Origin: Magnetococcales bacterium
Lineage (GTDB): Bacteria; Pseudomonadota; Magnetococcia; Magnetococcales; UBA8363
Reading direction: 5' to 3'
Assembly (NCBI GenBank): GCA_015228815.1
Contig: JADGCV010000010.1
Location: 1-46,217 of the forward strand
Length of the DNA: 46,217 nt
In this document: positions 40,524 to 42,572 of the stretch, piece after piece
Layout: every line of letters begins with the position of its first letter
Numbering within the stretch: the stretch's first letter is position 1
Position numbers and translations under genes: made by a program
Notes under the pieces: generated by a model
Told to the model about the DNA's origin: nothing
The model's input: only the letters and a program-made list of their open reading frames with translations
The model's database searches: none

Positions 40524-40690
40524 ATCCAGGGATACCTTTGAAAATACAGAAAATACAGGGACACCATACCAATTAAATTTATTGCCATAAGAGAAATCGG
40601 TAAGGTGTCCCCAGATTTCCTGATTGTGCCAAAAAACGGAAATTTCCGTCGCAACGGGGGTGGGTCCATATATGTCCCCAGATTTCCGGA
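40522..40690. repeat. REP-like repeats upstream of the RiPP locus
   Basis: AAATCCAGGGATACCTT at 40522-40538 is an imperfect inverse of AAGGTGTCCCCAGATTT at 40602-40618. A further TATGTCCCCAGATTTCCGG is at 40671-40689. The same unit recurs at 42515-42535 before the transposase fragment. The remaining 165 bases up to 40855 hold no gene, only homopolymer runs and the leader of the RiPP gene. Confidence 0.7.
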
Positions 40691-40845
40691 ATTGGCGGGC
40701 AGTTACAAAAATTGCTTGATTTTTGCGGGGGTGGCAACTGCTCCTCCGATGATCGGCCTCTCAAAGTTGTTTTTTTTGGGGGGTGACTGTTGTGTTTTTG
40801 ATTTTTTGCCTGAAGGGCATAATGTTCATGTTTCAGCATTTTTTA

Positions 40846-40852
40846 GGAGGTC
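40846..40852 (+). promoter_or_regulatory. Strong ribosome-binding site of the RiPP precursor gene
   Basis: AGGAGGT lies a few bases before ATG 40856, preceded by a T-rich leader containing CATAAT, a possible -10 box. Confidence 0.6.
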
Positions 40853-40855
40853 ACC

Positions 40856-41164
40856 ATGTCGGATCAGAGTTCTCGTCGAGGTTTTTTGAAAGTAGCCCTC
40901 GTGTCCGCAAGTGCGGTGGCTGGTCTGTTCGCCACGGTTAAATTTGACTCAGTAGACGGCGTGAAGATTGGCAAGTCGTCTGTTTCGGTCGGCATGTCAG
41001 AGGCAAATGCTATGTGTGGTGGCGGGGCAGATTGCGCTGGCGGGGGCGGTATGTGTGGTAGCGGGGCAGATTGCGCTGGCGGGGGCGGCATGTGTGGTAG
41101 CGGGGCCGATTGCGCTGGTGGGGGCGGCATGTGTGGTGGCGGGGCCAGTTGCGGCGGACAGTAG
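40856..41164 (+). CDS. Putative RiPP precursor: Tat-type leader plus Cys/Gly repeats
   Basis: A 102-residue peptide with two parts. Residues 1-52 are a leader with a twin-arginine motif SRRGFLK followed by a hydrophobic stretch to about residue 27, and ending in ANA, a possible leader-peptidase site. Residues 53-102 are three exact-length 13-residue repeats (MCGGGADCAGGGG and two MCGSGADCAGGGG) plus MCGGGASCGGQ. The eight Cys at 54, 60, 67, 73, 80, 86, 93 and 99 alternate spacing of six and seven. A radical SAM enzyme starts 11 bases after the stop, so the peptide is probably its substrate: the Cys, or neighbouring carbons, could be cross-linked or bind a metal. I know no named RiPP family with this core. 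Confidence 0.75.
   Translation: MSDQSSRRGFLKVALVSASAVAGLFATVKFDSVDGVKIGKSSVSVGMSEANAMCGGGADCAGGGGMCGSGADCAGGGGMCGSGADCAGGGGMCGGGASCGGQ
41012..41161 (+). repeat. 39-base tandem repeats coding for the RiPP core
   Basis: Units begin at 41012, 41051, 41090 and 41129, the last shortened. They are nearly identical and in frame, suggesting gain and loss of units by recombination. They are not a CRISPR array: there are no spacers. Confidence 0.9.
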
Positions 41165-41175
41165 TAGTTCGCGAC

Positions 41176-42486
41176 ATGCCATACAAGCCAAAGGTTGCTG
41201 ACGGCATTTTCTACGCAGAGAAGGCCACCAAGCATTTGTTCTTAAATCCACAAGTTCCCGACTGGCTCATCGTTAATTCCAACGGTGGTTTGTTGCTGTC
41301 GCGGTGCAACGGTGAGGCTTCGGTCGAAGAAATCGCCGTTTTCTGTGGAGCCCAAATGTCTGACGTGGAAACGTTGTTCGAACGGGCGGCTGCGCACGGT
41401 CTGATCGTTGGGTATCCAGCCGCAACGGACACAAGTTGCAGCAACTGCGGGTGCGAAAAATATGGAACAGCCGCTGAGGTTATCTCAATGCCACCAACAC
41501 TTCGCACTGTCCATTGGAAACTTACGGACGATTGCAACCTTCGTTGCCGCTATTGCTACGCAGAAAGTGGTGGAGCTTCAGCGAGGATGTCGTTCGAAGA
41601 CCTCGTGCGCGTCGCCCACGATGTCGCTGAAATCTCACCGTCGGTCGAATACACCCTCAGTGGTGGCGAGCCGCTCCTTCACCCTGATGCGTTGAACTTT
41701 GCTGATCTGTTGAAAGCCGGAGGAAACACCATTTCCCTGCTTACGAACGGGACGCTTATCGACAATACCAACGCTGCACGGATTGCGGCTTTCAGTGATC
41801 GTATCAAGATTAGCCTTGATGGCTCGACGGAGGATATCCACGCATTGACCCGTGGCACGGGCAACCATGCGGCAGCCATGGCCGCCATCGACATGCTCGC
41901 GGCACTTGGTGCCAATGTTGAGATCGCTATGACAATCCACAAGGGAAACAGACACGACGTTGATGCTATGACGAGGCGATATGGCGCAATGCTAAAGTTC
42001 CAGCCGCTTTTCCCTGCGGGACGTGGGGCACAGCGGAGCGACTTGCACCTCACCGGGACCGAATACTACGAAGCGATGGCATTTACCGAGAACGTAGCAC
42101 CGATGGGTGCCATAACTGGTCTCCTTGAACGACTGCGTGGGAAAGGTGTCAAGCGTTGTGCGCTTGCCGATGCCGAAATCAGCATCTCCGAGACGGGAGA
42201 AGTCTATCCGTGCCAGTTGCTGACAGAAAGAGAATTCGCTGCGGGGAACGTTCGCGACACGCCGCTTAGGGATATCTACTACCATTCGCCCGTCTTGGCG
42301 AAGGCTCGTGCCGTTTCGGTCGATACGCTGGAAAAGTGTCAGGACTGTCCCATCCGCCTACTTTGCGCGGGGGCATGTCGGGCGCGAGACTATCACGAGA
42401 TCGGTGTTATCGACCAAGTGGGCGATTTCTGCGAATATGAACAACTGGCGTTCTTACACGGTTTGTTCGACTCCGCTGATTTCTGA
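41176..42486 (+). CDS. Radical SAM/SPASM enzyme with PqqD-like N-terminal domain
   Basis: A 436-residue maturase next to the Cys-rich peptide. The ATG at 41176 is the first good start after the peptide stop; the longer frame begins inside the peptide gene. Residues 10-85 resemble the PqqD/RRE leader-binding domain (LIVNSNGGLLLSRCNGEASV). A short Cys cluster SCSNCGC (87-93) precedes the radical SAM core, with the iron-sulfur motif CNLRCRYC (Cys120, 124, 127) and SGGEPLLHP. The C-terminal SPASM region has many Cys (CALADA, EVYPCQL, CQDCPIRLLCAGAC, DFCEYEQ), room for two more clusters. Such enzymes make thioether or C-C links in peptides. The natural substrate is inferred to be the upstream peptide. 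Confidence 0.9.
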   Translation: MPYKPKVADGIFYAEKATKHLFLNPQVPDWLIVNSNGGLLLSRCNGEASVEEIAVFCGAQMSDVETLFERAAAHGLIVGYPAATDTSCSNCGCEKYGTAAEVISMPPTLRTVHWKLTDDCNLRCRYCYAESGGASARMSFEDLVRVAHDVAEISPSVEYTLSGGEPLLHPDALNFADLLKAGGNTISLLTNGTLIDNTNAARIAAFSDRIKISLDGSTEDIHALTRGTGNHAAAMAAIDMLAALGANVEIAMTIHKGNRHDVDAMTRRYGAMLKFQPLFPAGRGAQRSDLHLTGTEYYEAMAFTENVAPMGAITGLLERLRGKGVKRCALADAEISISETGEVYPCQLLTEREFAAGNVRDTPLRDIYYHSPVLAKARAVSVDTLEKCQDCPIRLLCAGACRARDYHEIGVIDQVGDFCEYEQLAFLHGLFDSADF

Positions 42487-42514: not shown

Positions 42515-42535
42515 GAAATCCAGGGACACCTTTCC
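42515..42535. repeat. REP-like unit before the transposase fragment
   Basis: GAAATCCAGGGACACCTTTCC repeats the unit at 40522-40538. The two occurrences enclose the RiPP pair. Confidence 0.7.
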
Positions 42536-42572
42536 TATTTTCCTTATAGCCATAATTTGGTATGATGGCCTC

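Follow-up and report, generated by a model that had tools for sequence, protein, structure and literature searches.

The DNA analyzed here (46,217 nucleotides, hereafter the window) carries on its forward strand two adjacent genes that make up a RiPP-type module: one for a small precursor in which a twin-arginine leader precedes a repeated cysteine motif, the other for a radical SAM/SPASM peptide maturase. The pair belongs to a conserved two-gene family that is real; the pairing of the genes and the architecture of the precursor are well supported. The same pair occurs at six loci in five genomes, namely the window's genome and four genomes in the phylum of a Desulfovibrio MAG. As to its product, we favor, at roughly even chances, a ranthipeptide- or sactipeptide-like molecule whose leader doubles as a Tat signal, whose units are thioether-linked in the cytoplasm and which is exported folded.

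Precursor gene and its conserved architecture

The precursor gene (102 codons; 40856-41164, forward strand, as are all features of the module) lies downstream from a Shine-Dalgarno sequence, AGGAGG, at 40845-40850; it starts with an ATG at 40856 and its stop codon ends at 41164. It is assigned as a RiPP-type precursor by comparison with homologues at five other loci (L009, L038, L039, L041 and L042). The peptide begins with MSDQSSRRGFLKVALVSASAVAGLFATVKFDSVDGVKIGKSSVSVGMSEANA and continues with repeats of the MCGGGADCAGGGG type. Its leader opens with a Tat consensus, SRRGFLK (S6-R7-R8-G9-F10-L11-K12; 40871-40891), followed by a hydrophobic (h) region, VALVSASAVAGLFAT (40892-40936; mean hydropathy 1.95), after which comes a Lys, and by a spacer, VKFDSVDGVKIGKSSVSVGMSE (40937-41002), which may constitute an RRE-binding segment. 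The tripeptide A50-N51-A52 (41003-41011), a possible cleavage motif of the form A-x-[A/G], stands immediately 5′ of M53-C54. The core (41015-41152) is a 39-nt repeat comprising four C-G-x3-[D/S]-C units (41015-41035, 41054-41074, 41093-41113 and 41132-41152) separated by AGGGGM linkers, with Cys residues at positions 54, 60, 67, 73, 80, 86, 93 and 99 (spacings 6, 7, 6, 7, 6, 7, 6). The preliminary description of this DNA had pointed out SRRGFLK, ANA and eight Cys in 6/7 spacing, all of which are found where it had placed them; the enzyme ATG, at 41176, lies 11 bases past the precursor stop, also as described. AlphaFold2 returned a helix at residues 5-26 of the precursor, in a low-confidence model (pLDDT 48) that was set aside as not interpretable. 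A lipobox reading of A-x-A-x-C was dropped on inspection by eye, with residues -3 to -1 a misfit and the spacing wrong.

Alignment of the homologues reveals which parts of this architecture are kept. In all five complete precursors, RRxF is followed by a hydrophobic stretch and then by an invariant Lys, and A-x-[A/G] precedes x-Cys in all six (ANA, AHA, AHA, AFA, AQG and AAG). The segment running from the best hydrophobic window through A-x-[A/G] measures 25, 24, 25, 25 and 23 residues in the five complete precursors, a constancy that suggests function. Among the 25 core units, 24 start with CG and, in 23, the two Cys enclose exactly five residues; the residue before the second Cys is invariably N (12 units), D (5), E (4), S (2) or T (2). 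As units within one peptide are mutually dependent, these counts do not amount to 25 independent tests, the independent cases being the six loci. Linkers mostly read [A/S]GGGGx and vary at L041 and L042, indicating that the conserved element is the unit rather than the linker.

Distribution of the gene pair

When 84,980 species genomes were searched with the enzyme as sole query, by a method based on short exact patterns that detects close relatives only, one such relative (49% identity) came up, in a Desulfovibrio MAG (L009). The gene directly upstream encodes a peptide that shares the leader and core of the window precursor (53% identity). Profile searches added two pairs in one genome (L038 and L039, both in G192) and single pairs in two others (L041 in G743, L042 in G588). 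At L038 the enzyme gene comes first, its stop overlapping the start of the precursor; at L042 the 5′ part of the precursor is unreadable near the contig end and five units are legible. The second G192 pair (L039:1196-2394) has an intact precursor next to an enzyme gene missing its N-terminal part and CX3CX2C motif, and this enzyme copy looks decayed. Overall, the two genes are adjacent at six of six loci, in either order. Counting other genomes with the pair and comparing their repeat numbers, both proposed in the preliminary description, gave five further loci in four other genomes and cores of 3, 4, 5 or 6 units. Since these five loci combine the same kind of precursor with a related enzyme, the association is more than chance, and a fortuitous Cys/Gly open reading frame was dropped as an explanation.

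The pair is rare. It was found in 1 of 8 genomes of the window's own genus, 1 of 48 of its order and 1 of 398 drawn from its phylum; around L009 the figures are 2 of 348 in the class and 3 of 395 in the phylum draw, L009's genome included. A class draw of five genomes around G454 contained no pair. The window's phylum appears to differ from that of L009, judging from genome draws that apparently share no members.

In a tree built with six next relatives, the complete enzymes, five in number, are monophyletic (100/100). No Cys-repeat precursor lies within about 1.5 kb of the enzyme gene at the 27 next-nearest loci, which belong to other groups, and two or more units in one frame occur exclusively at family loci among 160 sequences scanned. 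The preliminary description had considered that homologous enzymes might occur without a nearby Cys-repeat gene; within the family, all six loci carry one. At least six of the nearest non-family loci (L043, L044, L045, L049, L051 and L055) encode a different short precursor, ITY[S/T]xx[D/E]I...GPA[Q/H]xC, accompanied at some of them by a PqqD-like gene and an HPr-kinase-like gene, as judged by eye. These loci apparently represent another RiPP type.

Mobile-element collections gave little. Searching viral contigs with a single-protein query produced no match; with an alignment query, an IMG/VR contig (L080:3-605) was seen to encode the C-terminal 200 residues of a family enzyme next to genes of phage type, its phage nature being judged by eye and by the collection, and the precursor side being lost at the contig end. 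Plasmids contained distant radical SAM enzymes only, and PHROGs returned general radical SAM matches only.

The maturase and its predicted cross-links

The second gene (41176-42486) encodes a protein of 436 residues, recognized as a radical SAM/SPASM peptide maturase by its motifs, by its Pfam matches (Radical_SAM, 1e-23; SPASM, 9e-8) and by its fold model. The radical SAM CX3CX2C motif consists of C120, C124 and C127 (41533-41556). The SPASM region (42157-42432) contains seven Cys (C328, C346, C388, C391, C397, C401 and C419), all invariant among 11 aligned enzymes, and is expected to house two auxiliary Fe-S clusters. An AlphaFold2 model of the enzyme (mean pLDDT 84, pTM 0.81) most resembles CteB (Z 29.0, rmsd 4.9, 393 residues over 9-436); Z is 25.7 for TigE, aligned over 1-436, and 24.2 for SkfB. 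Foldseek ranks the same RiPP maturases at the top, CteB first. Sequence comparison with solved proteins likewise places CteB nearest (2.7e-30), ahead of SkfB (8e-25), both thioether-forming.

The N-terminal domain (residues 1-80; 41176-41415) resembles a RiPP recognition element (RRE). Residues 12-73 of the model are predicted to follow the beta-beta-beta-alpha-alpha-alpha order of such elements, and the CteB alignment starts at residue 9. The preliminary description had called this part PqqD-like. By sequence the window enzyme has no significant match, and two homologues have sub-threshold PqqD matches (14.1 and 15.2 bits against a cut-off of 23.4); the resemblance holds in the predicted structure. 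The small precursor beside the maturase at six of six loci and this predicted RRE are both features of RRE-dependent radical SAM RiPP systems.

The claim that no named RiPP family has this leader and core stands in NCBIfam and Pfam searches of the precursor and the enzyme, neither of which matched one. Membership in a known named family was dropped as a candidate, as neither protein passes an NCBIfam equivalog cut-off. The SCIFF ranthipeptides (CteA/CteB; thermocellin) likewise combine a Cys-rich precursor with an RRE-radical SAM-SPASM maturase, but the SCIFF maturase profile TIGR03974 reaches no more than 92 of 425 bits in the family enzymes for which it is listed. SCIFF precursors contain six Cys in about 45 residues; to our knowledge, neither repeat units nor a Tat signal are part of that family. 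Freyrasin, with six Cys-to-Asp links in one precursor (PMC8326336), would be analogous to the present peptides in the several units and links per precursor proposed here, and PapB is reported to accept Glu as well as Asp. The window family differs from these ranthipeptides in its CGx3[N/D/E/S/T]C unit with Gly linkers, and its enzymes score at most 104 of 340 bits with the PapB profile NF047865. The sactipeptide maturase profile StsB (NF045574) is the best profile for every complete family enzyme, and in four of five the match takes in the N-terminal domain (up to 183 bits), yet scores of 140.6-183.4 bits (157 for the window enzyme) stand against a curated cut-off of 625. The ACGX maturase profile TIGR04340 (79.6 against 400 bits) does not reach its cut-off either, and with the streptosactin GggB profile the enzyme is far below.

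Two further systems invite comparison. Bufferins and EGKCG/oxazolin peptides are Cys-rich repeat precursors with an export signal, modified by MNIO enzymes before export (PMC12452194), a paper whose main text makes no mention of Tat or twin-arginine signals. There the modifying enzyme is an MNIO (DUF692), whereas here it is a radical SAM/SPASM protein, and the scanned neighbors are not MNIO. SSN Cluster 59 (PMC9062424), which may overlap with the window family, is described as a recombinase and a radical SAM enzyme that occur with a peptide carrying as many as six Asp-Cys motifs. Like the window family, it is compact and has an xC motif that recurs, and a serine recombinase is also found near the window pair. 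The window recombinase, however, is encoded on the opposite strand, with none seen near the other pairs; Asp precedes the second Cys in only 5 of 25 units; and the description of Cluster 59 mentions no Tat signal. Within the open-access literature searched, no paper described a radical SAM RiPP with a twin-arginine leader. The window family can be placed among RiPPs of a known kind, with a twin-arginine leader that is new to the literature searched and that may have been described before.

In the model we favor, the precursor would be translated first, its leader acting both as twin-arginine signal and, by way of the spacer, as the strand that the enzyme's RRE domain recognizes. Our proposal that the spacer acts as an RRE-binding strand has a parallel in CteB, whose RRE binds the leader as a beta strand (PMC8326336). 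In the cytoplasm the enzyme would generate a 5′-deoxyadenosyl radical and form one thioether per CGxxx[N/D/E/S/T]C unit, giving four small rings in the window peptide. The likeliest link would be of ranthipeptide type, joining the first Cys of the unit to the N/D/E/S/T at the fifth position after it. We favor such a non-alpha thioether on two grounds: Asn, Asp, Thr and Glu have precedent as acceptors, and CteA was first reported to contain a Cys-Thr link across five residues, a position later disputed (PMC8326336). The predicted fold and the conserved N/D/E/S/T before the second Cys point to thioether cross-linking rather than to the metal loading also raised in the preliminary description, which may nonetheless occur.

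The fold alone leaves the reaction unfixed, CteB and TigE sharing it while carrying out different chemistry. A serious, if unlikely, rival to the non-alpha thioether retains the same RiPP pair and Tat export and has the enzyme make sulfur-to-alpha-carbon links, as in sactipeptides, or else epimerize residues or form a carbon-carbon bond. Speaking for this rival are the StsB profile match, the presence of SkfB among the nearest solved sequences and folds, and the full-length similarity of fold to TigE. Against it, CteB is nearest in both fold and sequence, and non-alpha acceptors agree better with the conserved polar residue that precedes each second Cys.

Proposed export of the peptide and genomic setting

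The Tat-type leader recognized in the preliminary description is borne out by comparison. The leader conforms to [S/T]-R-R-x-F-L-K followed by a hydrophobic region, RR and F being invariant in the five complete precursors, and the window's genome contains a TatC gene (E 4.7e-72). With the Tat-signal profile TIGR01409, the window precursor falls just short of the cut-off (15.4 against 16.7 bits), and the homologues score 10.3 or do not match. The Tat system carries folded cargo, metal-loaded proteins included, and for this reason suits a cross-linked peptide. Too rigid to be threaded easily through Sec, the modified peptide would be taken by the general Tat translocase to the periplasm in folded form, where it would either stay anchored or be freed by a protease at A-x-[A/G]. 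Leftover Cys may bind metal or serve redox chemistry; the leading ideas for function are metal buffering, by analogy with bufferins, and redox.

The preliminary description had also read ANA as a possible cleavage site. The motif does stand directly before the repeats, and its retention before x-Cys in all six precursors suggests a cut. However, the c-region of a usual signal peptide, cut by signal peptidase I, is much shorter than 23-25 residues; since A-x-[A/G] ends that far past the h-region window (about 25 residues for ANA), no signal peptidase I site is found shortly after the h-region, and ANA is probably not an ordinary signal peptidase I cut. The precursor alignment contains no conserved AxA nearer the hydrophobic stretch, and comparing neighbors between loci revealed no common peptidase, transporter or partner gene.

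These features also bear on the rather doubtful alternative of a membrane-anchored peptide, held by an uncleaved Tat or Sec anchor with its modified repeats facing the periplasm for metal binding or redox. The constant distance from hydrophobic window to A-x-[A/G] would agree with an anchor, as would the missing closer AxA and the precedent of bufferins as exported, copper-chelating Cys-rich RiPPs; the motif kept before x-Cys argues instead for cleavage, and no metal-homeostasis gene is common to the loci. Very improbable is a Cys/Gly peptide that binds metal or Fe-S without modification and is exported by Tat, the radical SAM gene beside it being unrelated in function: the established transport of metal-loaded proteins by Tat and a core rich in Cys and Gly would accommodate it, but adjacency at every locus in both orders, the single clade of complete enzymes and the RRE-like domain all oppose it.

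Returning to the cross-linked, Tat-exported product, we would tentatively, and with slightly more doubt than belief, regard the module as the first RiPP family with a functional twin-arginine leader, making in the cytoplasm a multi-ring thioether peptide that the general Tat machinery exports folded, without a dedicated transporter. If so, cross-linked peptides in Gram-negative cells could be exported through Tat and would need no ABC transporter of their own, and the reason for using Tat on a small peptide would be that covalent rings have already folded it. With 3-6 units per core, the family would lend itself well to working out the rule that a new maturase follows, and its leader would allow two functions to be tested at once.

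The gene pair is set among defense and mobile genes. Between 35621 and 45755 are found an ABC-3C CTD6 protein, an AbiEi/AbiEii pair, a HEPN/Toprim protein, a serine recombinase, DUF2924 and KilA-N. On either side of the two genes, at 40576-40619 and 42515-42558, lie the 44-nt arms of an inverted repeat that is imperfect (80%); the module may have moved as a unit. The core of the inverted repeat, ATCCAGGGACACCT, occurs once in the whole genome.
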